A stretch of DNA of 64,000 nt, from positions 12,281,806-12,345,805 of the forward strand of contig OZ029921.1 in the NCBI GenBank assembly GCA_964023275.1, given 5' to 3'. A model generated the notes under the pieces. The model saw only the letters and a list, made by a program, of their open reading frames with translations, searched no databases and was not told the origin of the DNA. A program made the position numbers and the translations under genes. The stretch comes from Norana najaformis (lineage: Eukaryota > Annelida > Clitellata > Crassiclitellata > Hormogastridae). Positions 1,696-59,173 of this stretch are shown here, piece by piece. The first letter of the stretch is position 1. Every line of letters starts with the position of its first letter.

Positions 1696-1795
1696 CTTGC
1701 TCATGATTGGCTTGTCTTCTTCTTTGTCAATTGGAATTGAAGTACTATGCACCCAGGTGTTTGTACATAAATGGCGCAATCGTACGAAAGAAGAT
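1696..1795 (-). CDS. ITPR: ITPR exon f (IP3-binding core, MIR region)
   Basis: 100-nt exon. Acceptor TTTTAG lies immediately above 1795 and donor GTGAATTC immediately below 1696. The first base completes an arginine codon begun by AG at the end of exon 14454-14611. It then encodes 33 residues with the very conserved ITPR motif [17 protein letters not shown], followed by [10 protein letters not shown]. This is a beta-strand segment of the MIR/beta-trefoil part of the IP3-binding core. The motif is diagnostic for IP3 receptors. It exits in phase 0. The following exon (starting around SPVKEDKEAF in the family) lies outside the window. Confidence 0.96.
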
Positions 1796-14453: not shown

Positions 14454-14611
14454 CTTGGCACTGTTGCTTCCTTTGTCATCGTTGTAGGGTCTAATTCAAA
14501 TATGGATGCAATGTCATGTCCATGAGGAACCGAAACCAGGCTGTAGACTGGGGCATTTGGATTTCCTCGAAGTTTTGACCTCATGAGATCTGGCATTTGA
14601 TCACTGTCAAC
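14454..14611 (-). CDS. ITPR: ITPR exon e
   Basis: 158-nt exon. Acceptor CAATTTAG sits above 14611 and donor GTAAGG below 14454. It enters in phase 0 and leaves after AG, the first two bases of an arginine codon completed by the exon at 1795. It encodes [16 protein letters not shown], then [10 protein letters not shown] and [12 protein letters not shown]. This is the segment after AEVD in invertebrate ITPRs. The vertebrate form has a longer acidic insert at this point (from memory), which points to an invertebrate-type receptor. The acceptor lies inside a retroposon tail. Confidence 0.95.
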
Positions 14612-14700
14612 CTAAATTGAAATTGTAATTGTAACTGCAATTGTAATTACGACAATTTATACAGCATCGTCAGTTGCTAGCTACTTCAAGGGTGCTTTAC
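14612..14700 (-). mobile_element. Retroposon 3' tail abutting the splice acceptor
   Basis: On the minus strand it reads ...GCTGTATAAATTGTCG followed by TTACAATT repeats and CAATTTAG, then the exon. TATAAATT plus TTACAATTAC is the tail signature of the SINE at 47493 and of LINE families A and L here. The tail supplies the last bases of the intron. Confidence 0.65.
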
Positions 14701-14726
14701 AATGTCAAATGTTGGCGCATATAAGA

Positions 14727-14797
14727 GTCCAACAATAAATAATAAATGGATGATGTACAAACTCAAAATCATTCAATTATCATTTATTGTTGGACTA
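14727..14797. repeat. 15-bp inverted repeat (hairpin)
   Basis: AGTCCAACAATAAAT at 14727-14741 is the exact reverse complement of ATTTATTGTTGGACT at 14783-14797, with a loop of about 41 nt. It may be the two ends of a tiny MITE, but no target-site duplication is clear. Confidence 0.8.
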
Positions 14798-14808
14798 GCC
14801 CAAACCAT

Positions 14809-14860
14809 AAGCTATAATTTAAATTTTATGCTAAAAGCTATAATTTAAATTTTATGCTAA
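14809..14860 (+). repeat. 26-bp perfect tandem repeat, 2 copies
   Basis: AAGCTATAATTTAAATTTTA plus TGCTAA is repeated exactly at 14809-14834 and 14835-14860. Confidence 0.95.
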
Positions 14861-14964
14861 AGCATGATGACAGGCATTGTGATAGACTGAAACAAGAAGC
14901 ATCTTTGTCTTGCCTGTCCTTGTCTAGAATGTGTGTGTGTGTGGGGGGGTGGGTGGGTGTGTAC

Positions 14965-15186
14965 AACAGTAAAAGTACACCTGTGAATTACAGTGCTGAT
15001 GCTTTTGCACATAAATACTTCTGGTTATGCAAATTTTTATTTTCTGCAGGGGAGTTGTTCAGAAAAGTAAGTGCATATGTGTCCAAAAGCAGAAGCATAG
15101 CTGTGAATCACAGGGCAGATGCTTTTGTGTATACATGGGGCTGGTAATTTGAATTTTATTTTCTGCAGAGGGAGCTACTGAGAAAT
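14965..15186 (+). repeat. ~120-bp imperfect tandem duplication, 2 copies
   Basis: CTGTGAATTACAG (14981) and CTGTGAATCACAG (15101), GATGCTTTTG, and TTTTATTTTCTGCAG recur at a spacing of about 120 bp. The copies are roughly 75-80% identical by eye. A (GT)n/G-rich stretch at 14933-14961 precedes it. Confidence 0.75.
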
Positions 15187-15239
15187 AAGTGAGTTCAGTT
15201 TATACAAATTGTTTAAAATGAACTGTCTGCATCTGAGCA

Positions 15240-15460
15240 GGAATACAGGTTCTTTTCCCACCAAACCATCACCAAACTACACTGTTATCACTTTCAACTA
15301 GGTATCCAGATTTTCAAGAATGACTTCTGCTCCTCACTTCCTTCTTCTGATTCAGACTTATCTGCAGATGCCCTCTCACCAACTTCAATCTGTTCTAACC
15401 GAACTTCTTGATAAACATATTCCTCATTGTAGCAAAACCCCATTTATTACACATTTGATT
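15240..15460 (+). mobile_element. Short LINE fragment (EN-RT linker)
   Basis: Plus-strand codons give SHQLQSVLTELLDKHIP, the pattern (ELLDKHAP) that follows the endonuclease in CR1/L2-type LINEs. Short and frame-broken. Confidence 0.55.
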
Positions 15461-17123
15461 AGAATTATATTGCGTTGTGTTACATACTTACTATTGTTGA
15501 ATCTAGTGTACAGGCTAGTTAGAGTAGCTAATTAAGATTTAGATTTAAGAGTAGCTGGCCAGCTACATAATAGGTAGGGTTTTATTATTAATAAATGGCC
15601 AGCTTAAGTAGATAGTTAGATTTCAGTCAGTTTAGCTGAGCATTTCTTACAGAATAGGATATACATTTACATGTCAGCCTAGTAATACATTGCATGACAT
15701 AAAAGCAGTTATTCTGTTAGACAGATTGATGTTGGTCAACTAGTGAAATCAAATAAGTAAGGTTTAATGCAAAATAAATTTTCTTCCTCTGTGTAGTCAA
15801 CAATTTAATTACATTAAGGGCATATTTTTCAAATCCTGGTATATGGTGCTAATATTTGTTTGGCATATTAATCATGCTGTTTTCAAGATATCTGCATATG
15901 ACATACCTATTTGTTTTGAACTACTGGAATTCTTTTGGAACTACTTTGAATATTTATATACATGATACAGGGTTTTAAACAGAACTGAATGCAGTATTTT
16001 ATTAAATAAATTCTGAATATGCGAAAATCAGACTTAGAACTCATTTTTTCAGAGCCAGTCATAAATGTGATTCTGTGGTGCATTGGCAGCCAAAGAAGAG
16101 ACTGCAGGACAAGTATGGCCACAACATTCAGAACCAACTGTAATGGTTCAATAGTGAGTTGCTATAAGCCAGCTTACTGAGGACAAACACTGAGACCAGG
16201 CTGGCAGTGACTGATTAAAGCGATCAAGGAGTTGTCAAACTTGCTTTGCAATCAGGATATCAAGTTGCCCAATCACAAATGCCAGAACAGTCTTCCTTGA
16301 TATGAACACCTGGTGCTCTGAAATAAGCTGAACATCTGACTGCAGTTCTATAGCCTGCATATGTTGGCAGTACTCCTCTTCAGTTGCAAGGCTTTAATGA
16401 CCACAAGGGTCTTGACTAAGAAGCTTGACAGCCTCAGGAGAATCTTGTTGATCCCCAATGTGAAGCATGTCAGCAACTTTGCAATTAGAAGGAAAACAGC
16501 AATTGTACCAGTCTTTGCACAGTTTGAAAACACAGACTGCAGTTCTTCAGGTATGTCACACATGCTCCTGAAAATTAGGACCCCCAGAAAGCCCTGTGGG
16601 GCACAATGAACGATCTCAAAAAGGATTCGAGAAGGCCATGCAGTTGGCCTAGGACGACCAAATGGATGAGAGTCATGAGAAGGCTCTGACAGCCCTGAAT
16701 ACCATCCTTCATACAGCAAGAAAGAAGGTCCACAACACAGCAATTTAGTGCTGCATTTTTCACATGACTTTGTACAGGCAAGTTCACCACCAGAGAGAAG
16801 ATAGAAGGAAAGAGAGAGAGAGAGAGACACTGCTTTATAGAAAGCTTACTGTTGAGCAACAAACCAGTTACTAGCATAGGAAAATGATGGCCAATCCTGT
16901 GTAGAGACTTGCATCCATGTTTGCTTGTGTCCCAAGGCATGTGTTCATGCCAAATCAATAGCAATGTGTTGCTATTAATAGAATGCAATGAATACAAGTT
17001 CCTATACAGCAAGCAATACAAAAGCCAGGACAAAAGTCGAAAATCAACAAGCTCTTTTGCTTCAAGACAAAGTCAACTAAGAATTCTAAAAATTAGCAAA
17101 AGAACTTTATGCAGATTTCTTAC
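15461..17123. other. Unassigned intron; possible decayed RT on minus
   Basis: 15545-15615 weakly resembles 50150-50230 (TGGCCARCTTAGGTAG-like words), suggesting an undescribed repeat. On minus, 16610-16500 reads CAPQGFLGVLIF...DIPEELQS, which could be a very decayed GVPQGSVLGPLLF...NDLP motif, but this is weak. Nothing else recognised apart from a short (AG)n at 16811-16827. Confidence 0.35.
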
Positions 17124-17219
17124 TTCAGCTGCCAGGTATTCACCAGTGGCAAGATGTTTGAAACGAAACAGGCTGTTCCAATAGCCAGCACCACCTCGAC
17201 AAGGATCATGATGAACAAC
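17124..17219 (-). CDS. ITPR: ITPR exon d
   Basis: 96-nt exon, 32 codons, phase 0 at both ends. Acceptor GTGTTGCAG lies above 17219 and donor GTAAGAAA below 17124. It encodes [14 protein letters not shown] and then [15 protein letters not shown], a strongly conserved MIR-repeat block of the IP3 receptor. It joins WEVE from exon 23539-23393 and continues with VDSD of the exon at 14611. The RTE family I copy 2 begins only 22 bp upstream of this exon, within the acceptor-side intron. Confidence 0.97.
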
Positions 17220-18172
17220 CTGCAACACAGTCACATGTTAATCACTATTTAGTTTATTAGCGCTCAGTATTTTAAAAGATGGCAATTGAAAAGATGAAAA
17301 ACAACAAAGCACCAGGACCATCTGGAATGACTGCCGAAATGTTTAAAGCACTTGGACATGATGGCATCGAATGGCTACACATCATTTTAAATGACTTCAT
17401 GAAACAAGAAAGGGTGCCACAAGATCTGAAGGAAAGTGAAATAATAGCAATATATAAACAAAAAAGGAGATGTATTGGAATGTAGTAACTACAGAGGAAT
17501 TAAGCTGTTGGAAATTGGATTGAAAGTTTATGAAAGGGTTAGGGAACGGGTCGAGCTACATGATAACCAGTTTGGTTTTAGGCCCGGTAGAGGCACAATG
17601 GATGCAATATTCATATTGATACAGGTGCAGGAGAAAATACTAGAAGGAAACAACATAAGATATTGGACTTTTGTAGAAAACTTTTGTGGAAAAGGCTTTT
17701 GATAGAATACCAAAAGAGTTGTATATTGGAGTCTGAGGAAAAAGGGAGTATCAGAGAAAATAGTGCGTATGAAGATGCACAGACTTCAGTGAGGAGCAAT
17801 ATACAAAATACAGTAAAATTTGATATTCGAGTGGGTGTACATCAGGGATCCTGCTTGAGTCCTCTGCTGTTCGTCATAGTAATGGATGCCACATAGGAAA
17901 ATGTGAGAAGAGAAGTATCATGGGATATGATGACCTCATAGTGGCAGACGATACAGCGACAAAGATACAAGGGCGTTTCTCTGATTGGCAGAAGGCACTG
18001 GAGAGCAAGGGTCTTAAAATAAATATCAATAAAACAGAGACCATGGTATGCTCCAAAATGGATGAGACACTTGTGGTCAAGGACATTGCAGGAAATGCAA
18101 TGAAACAAGTAGAAACCTTTAAATACCCTGGGTTGATAATGAATGTGTATCATGAGTGGCTAGCACATAGGC

Positions 18173-19710
18173 AAGAAACAAGAAAGCCTTGGCCTCCGCC
18201 CCGAAGCGTCTTCCTCGGATGCTGCTCCGACTTCAAAGGTACTCATACGAGCTTATCTATAAGCGAGGCACTGACATGCTATTAGCAGACACTCTCTCGC
18301 GTGCATTCCCTAGCGGCGCTACGGAGCCGACTGCGTTTGGAGAGGTGGTCACCCTGCTAGATCGAGTAGATGAGGAACAGATGGACGAACTGCGAACGAT
18401 AGCTTCTGCAGACACTATAGAGCGGCTGACTGATGCAGCGAAGGACGAGGACTATGCTCAATTAATACAGCAGATCGTGATAGGCTGGCCGGAAACGCCG
18501 ACCAACCTGTCGACAAATTTACGACCATACCATACGTTTGCAGATGAATTGAGTGTCAACTGCGGTCTGATCTTCAAAGGCGACTGCCTTGTCATCCCTC
18601 CTCCAATGCATGCCCACATCCTTGAACGGCTCCACAGCGCGCATACGGGTGTCAATTCCATCATTCGCCGAGCACGGGAAACGGTATTTTGGCCGGGACT
18701 CACGGCCGACATCAAACGCGTATCTGAGACTTGCGAAATCTGTGCCCGTTATCATCTATCAATGCAGAAGGAACCCCTGATGTGTCATCCGGTGCCAAGT
18801 CGGCCCTGGGAGAGAGTCGGGATAGACATCTTCACGTTTCACGACAGGGAATATTTAATCTCAGTCGATTATTTATCCGGGTTCTTCGAGATCGACCGTT
18901 TACCATCAAAAAAGGTATCGGACATCGTCTACTGCTTACGTCAACACTTTGCCAGGCACGGTTTTCCATCATTCGTAATTACAGATAATAGCCCTTTCTG
19001 TTCCCAAGAGTTCAAACGTTTCGTCGACAAGTATGAGTTCCAGCATATTACACTGTCTCCTAGATACCCACAATCAAACGGAAGGGTCGAAAACGCTGTG
19101 AAGACTGCTAAAAGAATCATGACCAAAGCCAGGGAGGCGAACTCTGACCCATTTCTGGCATTATTAGAATGGAGGAGTACGCCTTCTGAGCAACTGACTC
19201 TGTCGCCGGCTGAAATTATGTTTGGCCGTTGACTGAGAACGCGCCTTCCTGTTTCAAATAGGCTCCTCGATACAGCTACTTCAAAAGCCACCACGATCGC
19301 CCTATCAGAGGCCAAGGCCCGGCAAGCCTTCTATTATAACAGAAGCGGAAAAGCGAGGCCATCATTACCAGTCGGGCAGACAGTCCGAGTGAAGTACGAT
19401 GAACGCCCAGAATGGCGCAAGGCTCAGATAACGGCAGTCCTCCCCCACAGATCGTACGCCGTTCGTTTTGAGGATGGAACCACTCGCAGGAGAACTTCGC
19501 GCCACGTGACACCAAGCTCAGAGCCCCCCATCATGGAGGAAGACAGCGAGAGTCCGACAGACCGCAACATTCAACGAGCTAACCCCCGCAGCTGAATCAC
19601 CTTCGGTAGCCCTCTCCCCACCTCCTCCATCAGCCGCCCACGGTGGTCCGGCGCCGGTGATTACACGCTCTGGGCGAGTGGTGATACCCCCAGCTCGCTA
19701 TTCGGACTGA
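18173..19710 (+). pseudogene. Gypsy pol remnant: RNase H end and integrase
   Basis: The frame reads through LLRLQRYSYELIYKRGTD and LADTLSRAF (RNase H end, Mag-like), then the integrase. A zinc-binding region carries LHSAH and CEIC (near 18636 and 18736). The catalytic triad is visible as D in GIDIF (about 18823), D in ITDNSP (about 18979) and E in GRVENAVK (about 19090). There is one in-frame TGA at 19230-19232 where the family has arginine (a CpG transition CGA to TGA would explain it). The same frame then continues to 19595. A +1/-1 shift near 19565 moves the last residues, ending ARYSD with stop 19708-19710, into the next frame. Mag-clade assignment is by motif style. Confidence 0.9.
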
Positions 19711-19740
19711 GGCACTGCAAAGAAAAAGCCTAAAGAACTA

Positions 19741-19823
19741 GACAGTAGGACTCCATAGATTTAGACTAGATAATAGGACTCCGTAGATTTAACTAGATAA
19801 TAGGACTCCGTAGATTTAGACTT
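19741..19823 (+). repeat. ~30-bp tandem repeat, 3 units, in gypsy 3' UTR
   Basis: TAGGACTCCRTAGATTTA with an ACTAGATAA spacer occurs three times. Confidence 0.85.
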
Positions 19824-19905
19824 TTTTTTAAAAAAAAGACTTTCTTTCTCAACATATATTTCGACGCAGATGGTACTTTCAACTTGCGATTTTCTGTGGA
19901 AAGGA

Positions 19906-20084
19906 TGTATCATGAGTGGCTAGCACATAGGCCAATAGGGACACTGATATTAGGGTTGGACATATAAGCCACGCCCTGTACATGGGTGCGCAACCCTCAC
20001 TGATGCAAGGCCACCAGTCTGATAATATACATGTAGCTGAACACACGTGTCATAGTGTCTATACCTATAGGCCAACCTGAAATA
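19906..20084 (+). mobile_element. 3' LTR of the gypsy element (179 bp)
   Basis: Starts TGTATCATGAGTGG right after a purine-rich GTGGAAAGGA and ends CCTGAAATA before the GAATG duplication. A TATA-like ACATATAAGCC is near 19960. The termini are not the usual TG...CA, so the end could be mutated or atypical. Confidence 0.82.
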
Positions 20085-21036
20085 GAATGCTAAAGGAGAA
20101 TGCAAACATGATGTTAAGAACAGGATTAAGGCAGCATGGCCAAAATGGAAAGACCTATCGAGTGTATTATGCGATGTCAAAATGCCAGTTTAACTCAAAG
20201 GAAAAGTATACAAAACAATGATAAGACCAGTGATGATATATATACAGCAAAAGCCTGGACATTGATGGAAGAGGAGGAGAAGCTTTTGGAGAGAACAGAA
20301 ATGAGAATGCTCTGATGGATACCTGGAATCTCACTGAAAGACAAGAAAAGGAATGAGTATATCAGACAGAAATTGGGAGTGGCATGTATATCTGACAAGG
20401 TACGAGAAGCCAGGGTGAGACGGTATGGTCATGTGATTAGGAGAGAAGAGGAAAACTGCATTAAAAGAATTATGACAGCAGAGGTCTACGGACGCCGCAG
20501 TTGGGGACGACAAAAGAAGAGATGGGGAGACATGATTCAGTAAGACCTAAAGCTTCTCAGACTGAAGAAAGAATACACTGGAGATAGAAACAAATGAAAA
20601 AGAAGGATCCATGTGGCTGGCCCCTCTCCTAGGAGGGATTAATTCCAGCCAGAAGGAAGAAGATCGGACAACAAGGAACAGAGGCAGTATGCCTCACATG
20701 TTAGGGTTCAGAAAATGAAGTTCCTAAACACTTCATGCCTCTGACTGCCACTCAAGGTTTTCTTAACCTCCTTAGCATTAACCCCTAGCGTTACTCGGGC
20801 CCAAAATTCTATGTAAAAATTGTTAACCCCGAGCGTGACTCGGGGTAATTAGCATTCATAGTATATGGCTCTCAGCCTATTGCAAACATTATATTTTTGA
20901 AATCTAACGTCATTTAGGCTAAGATAATATAATTAAGCACAGAAATAAGTGGAAGATATTTTTAGAATTGGGTCATAAACATGAAAATCAACCAATCGAA
21001 TCGGACATTTAAATCACAAATTGCAAATAACCCAAG

Positions 21037-21470
21037 ATGGTGGCGCAGCATGGCCTTACCGACGGCGAAATTCGGCAAATGTTTGATGAATAATTGACAT
21101 CAGATGATGACAGTTTCAATTCATCTGACAACGAAAACCTGTTTGGTGCATCCAGTGTGGAAGATGAAGTGACTTTGGCTGAAGAACATTCTGACATCGA
21201 CACCGAGTTCACAGATAGCTTCTGATACAAGTTGTCAGAGCAACGTGAAACTGGGTCGGACGGATCCGATGCTAATGACTCGGGCGAGATAGACTGGACA
21301 GAATTTGTATCAGATTTTCCAGTTTAATCCTTAACTGTTTCATTTACACGTGTCTGTGGCAGACCAGCCCATGGTGCATCATTTTTTTCACTTCTTCTCA
21401 CTGTTTTTACATAACAATTTTTTGATGTGCTAGCTGAACAGACCAATCTGTATGCTCAGCAGAATAGATC
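21037..21470 (+). pseudogene. piggyBac transposase N-terminal remnant
   Basis: The ATG at 21037 opens VAQHGLTDGEIRQMFDE, then an acidic Ser/Asp/Glu-rich stretch typical of piggyBac N-termini, with in-frame stops after FDE and after TDSF. Near 21413-21466 the sequence reads FFDVLAEQTNLYAQQ, matching the start of the conserved piggyBac domain (FF...ETNRYAxQ). The catalytic DDD core was not found. It lies inside TTAA-bounded inverted repeats, which supports the call. Confidence 0.78.
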
Positions 21471-22233
21471 AGAGGAACTGCTGTTCATCATCAACTGCAG
21501 ATGAACCCATGCATGTGTCATTTACAAGTTACAACTATAATTTTCACATGGGTGGGTGGACTTGGGTAATCAGAATGCTATTACCCGGTTGGCCGGTTTG
21601 GTAATAAAATAGTGGGGGTAGATTTTCTGGTGGGAAATAATGTTGCCATTTTCATTGCCTATGAACTTCCCCAAAAGCCCAAGCAGATTTGGCAGATTCC
21701 AGAAGAAGGTCTAGGATAAAGCATCGACACTTCAGATGGGAACTTGCCAAAGAACTAAACAGAGGTTTCAGATGTGCTCGGCAGGCAACCGACTTGGGCA
21801 TGTTTCTCACCCATGCTGGCCGGAAGTGAGAGAGGTCACATCTTGGTCAGGCTTATAGGTTGCTGCCATACTTGCATCTTATGTTCAGAAATTAAGATCA
21901 CAACTCCCAAAGGGCTGCCCTAAGAAGATTAGTGTAAATGAAAAGCATTCAAAGTTGCTTTGTGCAGAGTTGGCCTCTTCCACATGTACCACAAGCAAAA
22001 TCATATAGTGGTTCCACGAACCAGTGCTGAGTAAATAAGTAAGTGCCTGTGGGGTATAAAGAAGGTAAGCAGTATAGCACATCAAAACAACTGTTCAAAT
22101 TTTCATTCTAAATTGTCTTCCTAAAACTATTCAGTCCAGTCTGTTGAGAAGGAGGAGTGGATCCAGGAAGCTTCAGCCATCTTCAAGATGACCATCCACT
22201 GTCAATCCACCACACTCAAGCATTTCTCAAATT

Positions 22234-22249
22234 GGCTCTTTTCAGAGCC
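22234..22249 (+). promoter_or_regulatory. Histone-mRNA-type 3' stem-loop
   Basis: GGCTCTTTTCAGAGCC is a perfect 6-bp stem with a 4-nt loop, followed by ACCA. It matches the consensus of replication-dependent histone mRNA 3' ends, bound by SLBP. No histone coding sequence was found upstream. A purine-rich stretch (GAAAAGGAA, 22260-22268) lies where a U7 snRNA site would be. Confidence 0.6.
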
Positions 22250-23079
22250 ACCAAATATTTGAAAAGGAAATGAACCATCAGTCTGTTTGTCTGTCTGTGT
22301 GCCTGGCTTGTTGTAATGTTTCTGTTATTACCCTGTTGTGCATCTTGTGTTTTTGATGTTGTGGTTGTATTGCTGTGCATGTGTTTGGGAGGTAGTGGGG
22401 TGGGTAGGCAACCCCAAACTTTTATTTCAAAACTGGACAAAAATATTGAAAGAGGATATAAAATGCTAAAGAATGATGTTAGTCTCAAGCCTGTATGTGA
22501 AAAATTGACCAAGATCTGATAAGTAAAAAATTTCTTACTTTTCTGGCATTTTCTTATATTTCCTTCGATTTTCACTACTACGGTCTACGTACTAAAAATA
22601 TTGTATCTTTTTAATTTATGAAAATGTTTTTAAAATTTTTGGGGGGTTTTGTCTGATAATAATTTCTGCACAGTTTTTGTGCTGACGCTACATATGTTGT
22701 CAATGAAAGTTTTTTCTATAGGGGCTTGAACATGAAAAAGTTTTAAAAATGGAGTGGGTACAGTTTGGGGCGACTTTGGGTACCCCCAAAATTTTTATGT
22801 CAAAAACTGGACGGATGGATTGGAAGTAGAGTTAAAATGCTAAAGAAGCTGTTTACCTTATGTCTCTAGGTCAAGAACTGAGATATCACAAGTGGAAAAC
22901 TTTAATTAATACGGCATTTTACGGTGATATAAAGCTCGTCAGTATTGGGATAAATATAACGTTTTCGGCATGTTTATCTGGGTGGAAATCTAACGCTAAG
23001 GAGGTTAAGGGACTGCTGTTCTCTTCTTCAGTTCATTTTAGCCCAGGTCTTGTGGTTTTAAATTTGTTTTGGATTTTAG

Positions 23080-23523
23080 TAAGAAAGTTCATTCACCTCC
23101 AGTTCAAGGTTTACTTTTGAGCTATAAGTCAGAGTATTTACACTATTTTTAAATAAAAATATTCACATATTTCCACTTCCCATAATGCCTTTGAACTGGT
23201 GGCTGCCGTAGCTGAAGTTCGTCCAGTAGTACGTAAAAAAATGTATTGCTTCTTCCGATATACATCACCAGTCAGAAATTTCTCTTGCTCAGCATGAAAT
23301 ATAAGAAAGTTCATTCACCTCCAGTTCAAGGTTTACTTTTGAGCTATAAGTCAGAGTATTTACACTATTTTTAAATATAAATATTCACATACTTCCACTT
23401 CCCATAATGCCTTTGAACTGGTGGCTGCCGTAGCTGAAGTTCGTCCAGTAGTACGTAAAAAAATGTATTGCTTCTTCCGATATACATCACCAGTCAGAAA
23501 TTTCTCTTGCTCAGCATGAAATA
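23080..23523 (+). repeat. 222-bp tandem duplication including most of an ITPR exon
   Basis: Units 23080-23301 and 23302-23523 are exactly adjacent and differ at two positions that I can see. Each contains the 3' part of the IP3-loop exon and the intron sequence downstream of it. The high identity means a recent event, or an assembly artefact. Confidence 0.96.
23171..23301 (-). pseudogene. ITPR: Dead duplicate of ITPR exon c
   Basis: The copy of exon c carried by the lower repeat unit. It lacks the first 16 bases of the exon and the whole acceptor region, because the unit boundary falls inside the exon. One of the two differences between the units changes its donor from GTATGTG to ATATGTG. 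It therefore has neither normal splice site and should be skipped. It still encodes the same residues from FHAEQEKF to WEVE if read. Confidence 0.93.
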
Positions 23524-23539
23524 GTCTGACGACATCACC
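23393..23539 (-). CDS. ITPR: ITPR exon c (IP3 phosphate-binding loop)
   Basis: 147-nt exon, 49 codons, phase 0 at both ends. Acceptor CTGCAACAG lies above 23539 and donor GTATGTGA below 23393. It encodes [18 protein letters not shown], then [18 protein letters not shown] and KALWEVE. In vertebrate ITPR1 the RTTGR run is residues 265-269, which contact the phosphates of IP3 in the crystal structure of the binding core. All five are kept here. This is the functional copy of the duplicated pair, because it alone keeps both splice sites. It is preceded by exon 41316-41233 (ends ILKG) and followed by exon 17219-17124 (starts VVHHDP). Confidence 0.97.
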
Positions 23540-23855
23540 CTGTTGCAGTGTCAGAAGAAAATATCTGTAGGCATCTGCTCTGAATATATCGAAAAGATGT
23601 TAACCATAAAGAAAACCTAAAACTAATCTGTGTGGCATGAAGGAAGAAGTTCTGTTCAATAAATGACAAAATCTATAGAAAAAAGCTTTGCTAAAGAATT
23701 ATAAGAGTTGGTCACTGAATTTACTTCAGCAACCAATTTATGGCACAAATGAATGCGAAAATCATTTTCATCATCGTCATCATTGTTGTCATGATCAACA
23801 ACAGTATTCTTTTCACATAAAGAAATTCCCCTTTGCACCAGCCATTCTGGGCTGT
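23540..23855. other. Intron next to exon c, nothing recognised
   Basis: AT-rich with no coding motif beyond the exon's own polypyrimidine/acceptor region at 23540-23565. Confidence 0.6.
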
Positions 23856-27433: not shown

Positions 27434-30427
27434 ATGTCTCAGGCTGTTATACCACACAGATATCAACGGCGAGAGTTGTACGCCATTAGAGGAGGACCTT
27501 GTCGCGTGTCTATTCAACAGATTGCGGAGTGCGGGCTTTTACATTATCGAGGTTCGCGTGCTGGTTCACATGTCAGGGCTAGGCGAGCTCGAGCGCTGAA
27601 TCTACGCTTATCCTACCCTCCGACACAGACATGTATGCCGGATGACTGTGCGAGGCAGCAGACAGCAGGGCAGACCATTTATGTAATTACTGGTCGACGA
27701 CCTTGCCGACGACCTGCTTTGAACATACAACCCGGGGCTGCTCCGATACGTTATCTGTTATCTCCGGTTATAAATCATTCAACTACTAATATGGTGGTCT
27801 CTCAGGGATGTAGCGCACAACTTTCAACATCTTCACACCCATCGATCTATTTGATCAACCCGACCAGCTTAGCTAAACCTCATGCGATCGAACATCTTAC
27901 TGCTGATGTCATATCCTACAGCTCCGACGTCGCCATCGTTGCCGAAAGTTGGTTAAAGAAGAACCATACTGATGCACAGATGAACATTCCTGAATACACC
28001 CTATTTCGTCGCGATCGGGTTGCACGAAAGGGAGGAGGTGTTGCGATTTTCTGTAGAAGCTGTTTCAACCCTACTCGTTTCCAACCACAAACAGTCTATA
28101 CTGAAGAAATCGAATTACTTTGGATCTCACTCAATATAAATGGTTGCACGTATTACATTGGTGCTCTGTATCATCCTCCGAGACCAATTTACAATGTCGA
28201 CTAATTTATAGCATGCATCGAATCTACATTGGACGAAATATGTGCTCTACCTGGAGACTCCGTTACCATTCTCGCTGGTGACTTCAACCAGTTACCTACA
28301 TCTACTATCCTTTCGATGGGCCTTTTGGCTGAATTTGAAGGTGCATCACACGAAGGTCATTCACTGGATAGAATTTATACTTCTGAACACATATACCAGG
28401 CCTGCACAGCTATTAAATCAACAATTAAAACGAAACATTCTGCTATTATTGCGTATCCTCAAAAGAGTCCTCATATCTCTTCAGACTTTGGTTCAGTAAA
28501 AACAGTGAACCAGTTTCGACTTCGCTCGCCAAGGCAATTTGCTGCACTTCAAAACTATCTTCAAGAAACGTCCTGGGACTTTATTACAGGTTGTCCATCC
28601 ATAGATATTTCTTTCAATGCTTTCTATTCTTATGTTCCTGAAATAATTGATCAGTTTTTTCCACTAAAAAGCATTACACTTAAAAGCAAAGATCCCCCTT
28701 TTATGACCCCTGTTATCAAATGCTTACTGCGCAAACGGAACAAACTTCTTAGGCAACATAAGTTTGAGGCTGCGTCGGCCCTGGCTAATAGGATTAATGG
28801 CCTTATTGCACATAAGAATGCTTCTGTTTTTGAAAGATCCAAACGCGGTTCCAGGGAGATGTGGTCTGAGGTCAACCGTCTTCGGGGCGCCTCTAAGAAT
28901 ATCCCGTACTCTGATTGTGGCATCACCGCCGAGTGCTTGAATCAGTATTATAGGGACATGTCGACTGATCTACAATATACCTCTCCCCCGCTTAAATCCA
29001 CAACGCTAGTTAGGACCCATGATGTCTTTGATGAATTTATAATTTTTAAACTGCTTGATTCGGCTGGGCACACAGCCACAGGACTTGATGAGATACCAAT
29101 GTGGTTTCTGAAAAACACTGCACCCATCCTGGCTAAACCCCTCACTTTTCTTCTTAACCAATCAATCATTAGATCCTATGTTCCACCTCAATGGAAAAAT
29201 AGTGTCATCAACCCTGTTCCTAAGGTTCCGAACCCTACCTCATGTAGCGATTTTTGCCCAATATCAATAACTTCAATTCTCTCTCGATTACTTGAAAAAC
29301 TTATTGTTCGAAGATTCTTCTATCCTATTCTTACTGAACAATCACTCAATCGTGACTTCTTTGACCAATATGCATTCCGACCTACTGGTTCCACGTCTGC
29401 AGCTCTTATTTCTATTACTCACCATCTGTCTGAACTGCTTGCTTCTAACCAATATGTTCATCTCATATCCCTTGACTTCTCAAAGGCCTTTGATACAATA
29501 AGACATGCCTATCTCGCTGATAAACTTGCTGATCTCGCTATTCCTGATCACATTTACAATTGGATAATTTCCTTCCTAACCAACCGACAGCACTGTACCA
29601 AATTCAGTGATAGTGTCTCTACCTTAGTTGGCATAAATTCCAGTATTGTTCAGGGTTCGGGTCTGGGACCAGTGAACTTCCTAGTTGCCATATCCAATTA
29701 TAAGCCTTTAGCACCCAACAATAGGTTATTTAAATACGCTGATGACAGTTACCTTCTTGTACCATCCTGCAATAGCTTGATGGTTCAGGCTGAACTAGAC
29801 CATGTTGCCCTTTGGGCGGATAAGTGTAACTTAAAACTTAATCATAAAAAGACATGTGAAATGATAATTCACCAGCCAAGAATGAGAAATCAGCAGATAA
29901 TTTTACCTAATGTGATTCCCGGTTTAACCAGGGTACCAGAGATGACAATATTGGGTGTTACCCTATCGAGGATGTTAAATTTTGATTCTCATATTGATCG
30001 GATTCATAGTCAGGCGCGTCAGTCTTTATATGCCATACGAATTCTTGTATCACATGGCCTAACTGGCCCTCAGCTCTACGACGTTGTCCGAGCCACAACA
30101 CTGGCCAGGATGCTGTACGCCTCTCCCGTGTGGTGGGGCTATGCTGGGGCACAAGCTAGAGCTCGGCTCCAGGCTTTGATGCGGAGACTTGTGCGTCTCC
30201 GCTATCTTCCTGGGAACTCGCCAACGTTCGATGAACTCTGTGGCACAGCTGATGCTCGTCTCTTTAAAGCAATCTTGAACAACTCAAATCATGTCTTACA
30301 TCAGCTACTCCCACCAATTAAAACCCTCAGTTATTCCCTATGGCCCCACACCCATGATCGTATTATTCCTCCTGCTGACAATTTAACTCGTAAATGTGTT
30401 ACTGTTAGGATGTTGTATGATTATTAA
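27434..30427 (+). pseudogene. LINE ORF2: APE endonuclease and reverse transcriptase, one stop
   Basis: 998 codons in one frame with a single in-frame TAA at 28202-28204. Endonuclease is at about residues 138-345: catalytic E in VAESW (171), RRDRVARKGGGVAIF, then LAGDFNQ (about 282) and TKHSAII (the usual SDH motif has become TKH). RT is at about 590-830: YAFRPTGSTS, LISLDFSKAFDT, IVQGSGLGPVNF and an intact KYADDSYLL (catalytic DD about 770-771). The C-terminal domain contains ASPVWWGYAG and ends MLYDY. The first 130 or so residues show no known domain and the true start is uncertain. A reading frame in another phase (27318-27599) overlaps the beginning. Near-intact, so perhaps recently active. 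Confidence 0.88.
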
Positions 30428-41232: not shown

Positions 41233-41316
41233 CCCTTTCAGTATATTCTCTTGATTTTCATTGAATTCCATGAATAAGTTAACTTTCCAGCAGGTGTTAC
41301 TGTTGACACAATTAAC
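41233..41316 (-). CDS. ITPR: ITPR exon b (end of suppressor domain)
   Basis: 84-nt exon, 28 codons, phase 0 at both ends. Acceptor AAATACAG lies above 41316 and donor GTATGCAT below 41233. It encodes VNCVNSNTCWKVNLFMEF and NENQENILKG. The family pattern here is V-N-x-V-N-x-N-T-x-W-K-I..LFM, ending K-G before GDVVRLF. It links CKE of the exon at 59173 to GDVV of the exon at 23539. Short and bounded by introns of about 17.8 and 17.7 kb. The two Cys positions relative to the Asn/Ser differ from the vertebrate motif as I remember it (NSVNCNTSWK). Confidence 0.93.

Positions 41317-41838: not shown

Positions 41839-41919
<81 letters not shown>
41839..41919. repeat. (AT)n microsatellite, about 40 repeats
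   Basis: Uninterrupted AT dinucleotides over 81 bp. Confidence 0.98.
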
Positions 41920-59074: not shown

Positions 59075-59173
59075 CTCTTTGCAACCTGGATTATCTGGTA
59101 AATCAAAGCCACTGGCATGCAGTGGCTGACCTGCATTGACTGGGTTCAAGACAACCTTGTCACCAACAACAAC
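59075..59173 (-). CDS. ITPR: ITPR exon a (suppressor domain beta-trefoil)
   Basis: 99-nt exon, 33 codons, phase 0 at both ends. Acceptor TTATTGCCAG lies above 59173 and donor GTATGAGC below 59075. It encodes [33 protein letters not shown]. The block [18 protein letters not shown] is an almost invariant ITPR signature near the end of the N-terminal suppressor domain. The previous exon (ending GDN in the family) was not found between here and 64000. The next exon is 17.8 kb downstream in transcript direction. Confidence 0.97.

Follow-up and report, generated by a model that had tools for sequence, protein, structure and literature searches.

A recent 222-base tandem duplication within the IP3 receptor (ITPR) gene of Norana najaformis, which codes for an IP3-gated calcium channel, appears to have left a partial, acceptor-less copy of one coding exon directly downstream of the intact exon, a copy that would be removed with the intron and would play no coding role. 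We give this reading a probability of about two in three. Provided that the assembly is correct, the second copy is most likely an ordinary, harmless intronic exon fragment. All coordinates refer to the window, which is the whole 64,000-nucleotide stretch of DNA analysed, and those of the individual features are collected in Table 1.

Table 1. Positions of the ITPR exons, the two tandem units and the associated splice elements in the window.
Feature	Positions	Strand	Remarks
ITPR exon A, 99 bases	59075..59173	-	tblastn, frame, AG/GT
ITPR exon B, 84 bases	41233..41316	-	tblastn, frame, AG/GT
Intact ITPR exon C, 147 bases, 49 codons, phase 0-0	23393..23539	-	tblastn, frame, AG/GT
ITPR exon D, 96 bases	17124..17219	-	tblastn, frame, AG/GT
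ITPR exon E, 158 bases	14454..14611	-	tblastn, frame, AG/GT
ITPR exon F, 100 bases	1696..1795	-	tblastn, frame, AG/GT
Exon C acceptor AG	23540..23541	-	outside duplicated unit; CAG at 23542-23540
Exon C first 16 coding bases	23524..23539	-	outside duplication
Exon C donor GT (GTATGT)	23391..23392	-	
Unit upstream in gene order	23302..23523	-	exon C minus first 16 bases, plus 91 intron bases
Unit downstream in gene order	23080..23301	-	partial second copy without acceptor
Exon remnant in second copy, 131 bases	23171..23301	-	identical to exon C throughout
AT (ATATGT) at donor position of second copy	23169..23170	-	

The host gene in the window

The exon search was carried out using tblastn with the N-terminal 884 residues of a human IP3R1 sequence as the query, and exon ends were fixed by the reading frame together with the AG/GT splice dinucleotides, both read directly from the sequence. 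The output comprised six minus-strand exons (A to F), the second copy of exon C and one weak match at 18947-19060, which was set aside (E 0.44). When joined, exons A to F yield 228 codons in a continuous frame with zero stops. The joined exons align along their whole length with the PDB sequence of IP3R1 (E 2.9e-115), the best ryanodine receptor (RyR) lying far behind (E 7.2e-09), and score above the Pfam cut-off for MIR (PF02815) and Ins145_P3_rec (PF08709). Judged by this homology, which falls in the suppressor domain and the IP3-binding core, the gene carrying the duplicated exon is the IP3 receptor gene, encoded on the minus strand. The six exons cover only approximately residues 176 to 417 of the receptor, and the remainder of the gene, with its C-terminal channel domain, is expected to lie outside the window, exon F being near its left end. 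At the join between exons D and E, which are separated by the intron at 14612-17123, the alignment omits a segment of about 15 residues which is found in some IP3R1 chains (5xa0 versus 3t8s).

The exon C peptide ends in LWEVE and holds the sequence RTTGR, which is aligned to IP3R1. The first-pass annotation of this DNA had described the exon as encoding the RTTGR loop that contacts the phosphates of IP3; the motif is indeed present in exon C, and in the part of its text used here, a molecular-dynamics study (PMC6385359) assigns contacts with IP3 to Arg265, Thr267, Arg269 and the Gly268 backbone. The exon ends at 41233 and 17124 that it had named are also right by frame and AG/GT.

Other elements were observed around these exons. 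Inside intron C-D, a match to the Rfam Histone3 3' UTR stem-loop was found at 22229-22274 on the plus strand (36.3 bits, gathering threshold 34); for the region 21300-22290, a single forward frame, its stops written as X, gave no match to any Pfam family, and inspection of the three forward frames of the same region revealed no recognisable histone. Two copies of one element, which by eye looks like a reverse transcriptase, occupy 1-1323 and 17408-20658 and show 87.9% identity in one part and 94.4% in another. The second of these copies is split at approximately 18146-20084 by a segment with an integrase-like open reading frame (Pfam Integrase_H2C2), which suggests that this segment is a nested insertion. 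Intron B-C contains an open frame of 740 codons at 28205-30427 on the plus strand that includes a reverse transcriptase domain (Pfam RVT_1, E 2e-23), perhaps a fairly recent retroelement.

The tandem units and the second copy

Tandem Repeats Finder reported a repeat at 23080-23523 with a period of 222, 2.0 copies, a 99% match and no indels. Base-by-base comparison of units 23080-23301 and 23302-23523 established that they are directly adjacent and that 2 of their 222 positions differ, namely, on the plus strand, 23156 (A) versus 23378 (T) and 23170 (T) versus 23392 (C); the exact adjacency and near-identity claimed in the first-pass annotation were therefore correct to the base (220/222 identical). 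Self-BLAST of the window returned the pair with an E value of 2.65e-109. At a lag of 222 the match can be extended by zero bases at either end, and no microhomology was found at the breakpoints, the junction being blunt with no bases in common. The unit pair aside, the region 22900-23700 produced no self-BLAST match (E up to 1e-5) within the window, and an origin of the unit in a repeat family was rejected, as no further BLAST match to it was present in the window. The longest exact run at lags of 20 to 2000 across the whole window measures 131 bases and derives from the unit pair, the next longest being a run of AT dinucleotides of 60 bases at 41839. No second tandem pair of comparable length and identity was listed in the window by either Tandem Repeats Finder or self-BLAST. 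A near-tandem pair of approximately 117 bases, sharing 74% identity and separated by 4 bases, was observed at 14958-15191 in intron D-E, possibly an older local duplication.

In gene order, the first base of the duplicated unit is 23523, which lies 16 bases into exon C, and the unit runs on for 91 bases past the exon, thereby encompassing 131 of the 147 exon C bases, the GT donor and a further 89 intron bases. Only the first unit keeps both the original acceptor and the GT donor, and the sequence directly upstream of the second copy is the intron tail of the first unit. At the donor position, the matrix score falls from 5.1 in the first copy to -5.4 in the second. That the duplication begins inside exon C, so that the copy lacks the acceptor along with the first 16 coding bases, and that one of the two differences converts the donor GT of the lower copy to AT, had both been claimed beforehand, and both were confirmed, ATATGT being read at the latter site. 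A U12-type AT-AC intron at the second copy was considered and rejected, since the U12-type donor consensus is ATATCC. The second copy is an adjacent, same-strand copy of an exon of the same gene, as in tandem exon duplication, in partial form.

These features are consistent with a history in which a recent tandem duplication with blunt breakpoints would have produced the two units. The first unit in gene order, still joined to the original acceptor, would be the exon in use; splicing would join its donor at 23392 to exon D (17219), the second unit leaving with the 6.2-kb intron. We infer that the duplication is present in the animal and that splicing skips the second unit because it has no original acceptor and carries AT at the donor position. 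As the breakpoint would have left the copy without an acceptor from birth, it would never have been a complete exon. The donor change is an event separate from the breakpoint, and we infer the relative order of the two. The divergence of 0.9% (2/222; 95% range 0.1 to 3.3%) would place the duplication at approximately 1.5 million years ago (0.2 to 5.4) at an assumed rate of 3e-9 per site per year. Both differences fall in the intron part of the unit, which has a chance of 0.17 and is uninformative. The label of a stillborn alternative exon, proposed in the first-pass annotation, is a fair description, but the copy bears no sign of ever having been alternative and “intronic exon fragment” fits better. 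To call it a clear case was too strong, as an assembly artefact competes with the duplication and splicing was predicted from the sequence, and its significance was overstated, partial intronic exon copies being expected by-products of a well-described process.

Alternative readings

The most serious competitor, to which we assign a substantial but clearly smaller probability than to a genuine duplication, is an assembly artefact in which the ends of two contigs or haplotypes were joined with a 222-base overlap left unmerged, the two differences then representing heterozygous sites or base errors. Divergence of about 0.9% is ordinary heterozygosity in many invertebrates, and the 2/222 observed here matches it in size; the blunt junction and the lack of any other tandem pair of such length and identity listed in the window also speak for such a join. 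False exon gains caused by unmerged haplotypes or by read errors are documented in assemblies in part of PMC9516828. Against this, no run of N separates the units (the window contains zero N), whereas in the NPNT example described in the same part of that paper an assembly gap lay between the copies, although a gap is one sign among several. An origin in two haplotypes would furthermore mean that one of them has a null donor at an essential exon, and such an allele should be rare; this argument is mild and does not apply to base errors.

It is also conceivable, though improbable, that the G-to-A change in the donor of the second copy was favoured rather than being idle decay, the silencing of a decoy having let the duplication persist. 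When it arose, the second copy would have had its donor intact, 222 bases downstream of the true donor, and a transcript using this second donor together with the exon C acceptor would contain a 369-base exon with in-frame stops; because of these stops, loss of the second donor might be favoured. The chance that one of two random differences strikes the donor dinucleotide is 0.018, but the test was chosen post hoc and is accordingly weak, and selection on the donor change is a possibility only. Were the silencing reading true, contraction of the two units to one would be a lasting hazard, as any crossover falling within the exon part, which makes up 131 of 221 intervals, would yield a dead exon C with the AT donor.

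Residual splice potential was assessed with simple, crude splice matrices, under which the authentic exon F acceptor scores just 0.9 and the true exon C acceptor 6.7. AG sites are present near the new junction, and the in-frame AG before 23287 scores 1.1 (50th percentile of AGs); since this exceeds the score of the true exon F acceptor, the matrix is not decisive on this cryptic site. A pseudo-donor, GAG|GTGAAT, is found at 23097 on the minus strand with a score of 7.9 (98.5th percentile of GT sites). The same sequence lies at 23319 (minus strand) in the first unit and also scores 7.9, both sites, which fall in the intron part of their units, exceeding the 5.1 of the true exon C donor. U1 binding downstream of a donor is described in part of PMC5933811. 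Candidate pseudo-exons, counted as acceptor-donor pairs contained in 23000-23392, were compared with those in 318 same-size stretches of the strand, which were unfiltered and include true exons and transposon sequence: at lenient thresholds there were 7 against a mean of 5.4 (109 of 318 stretches reach 7), six of the seven ending at 23097, at strict thresholds none against a mean of 1.4 (162 of the 318 stretches likewise have none), and at the loosest thresholds 20 against a mean of 26.9. By this crude scan, the second copy appears no more splice-competent than ordinary sequence of the strand; matrix scores alone are insufficient to exclude its use, the lenient count being slightly above the mean. 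The earlier view that splice competence was lost at both ends holds for the original sites, while weak AGs and the pseudo-donor at 23097 persist.

These sites raise the prospect that some splicing of the second copy takes place, as a poison pseudo-exon that pairs an AG by the junction with the pseudo-donor at 23097; this would add stops and lower ITPR expression. We consider this very unlikely. The score of 23097 relative to the true donor, the seven lenient pairs and the stop met after 10 further codons on readthrough from exon C all speak in its favour, but a third of the comparison stretches hold as many candidates, none survives at the stricter threshold, and exon C could be used in the modelled way only if the splicing machinery ignored the equally scoring twin at 23319.

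An arrangement of the two units as mutually exclusive or cassette exons governed by competing RNA structure is scarcely credible: a 12-base exon arm at 23413-23424 is 92% complementary to intron arms in both units, at 23318-23329 and 23096-23107, resembling the competing pairings in the consulted part of PMC6071210, but both original splice sites are missing from the second unit, the two copies do not each offer a usable acceptor, a usable donor and a compatible frame, and control by RNA structure was rejected on weak z-scores, the fold of one unit being unremarkable (z -1.33, with 20 of 200 shuffles at least matching it) and that of both units weak (z -2.05, with 2 of 100 shuffles at least matching it).

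Relation to known exon duplications

If the duplication is real, the locus offers a clean snapshot of how a tandem duplication with a breakpoint within an exon leaves an exon fragment in the intron rather than creating a further alternative exon; the gene is one in which failure should be costly. The locus serves mainly as a caution: annotation based on exon homology could call the copy a second exon, and conversion or contraction involving a tandem copy with a donor-null variant could generate a null allele. Were it an artefact, the locus would constitute one more false exon gain. Titles and the starts of abstracts in the literature yielded no recognisable report of an ITPR exon duplication, which is no proof of absence, and among the 190 and 232 pattern matches in genome and viral contig collections (non-animal) no relative was confirmed.

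Compared with the false exon gains in the consulted part of PMC9516828, the locus shares the appearance of an exon of one gene more than once in an assembly and differs in having no gap between the copies. It resembles the mutually exclusive pairs in part of PMC6071210 in that an exon and its adjacent intron were duplicated, the source exon here being of phase 0-0, but here the second copy could not act as an alternative exon with the original sites. Another close counterpart is tandem exon duplication as treated in part of PMC9013439 (Ivanov and Pervouchine 2022), which cites an earlier study for its occurrence in approximately 10% of animal genes and itself reports, for human genes, 4,027 intronic targets that lie outside annotated exons and repeats. 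In both, tandem genomic duplication has placed an exon homologue in the adjacent intron of its own gene. The unannotated copies of the human case studies there are backed by split reads or conservation, whereas the copy described here is partial, 99% identical, acceptor-less and identified from its sequence. The ITPR copy is a partial, apparently inert member of the tandem exon duplication kind.
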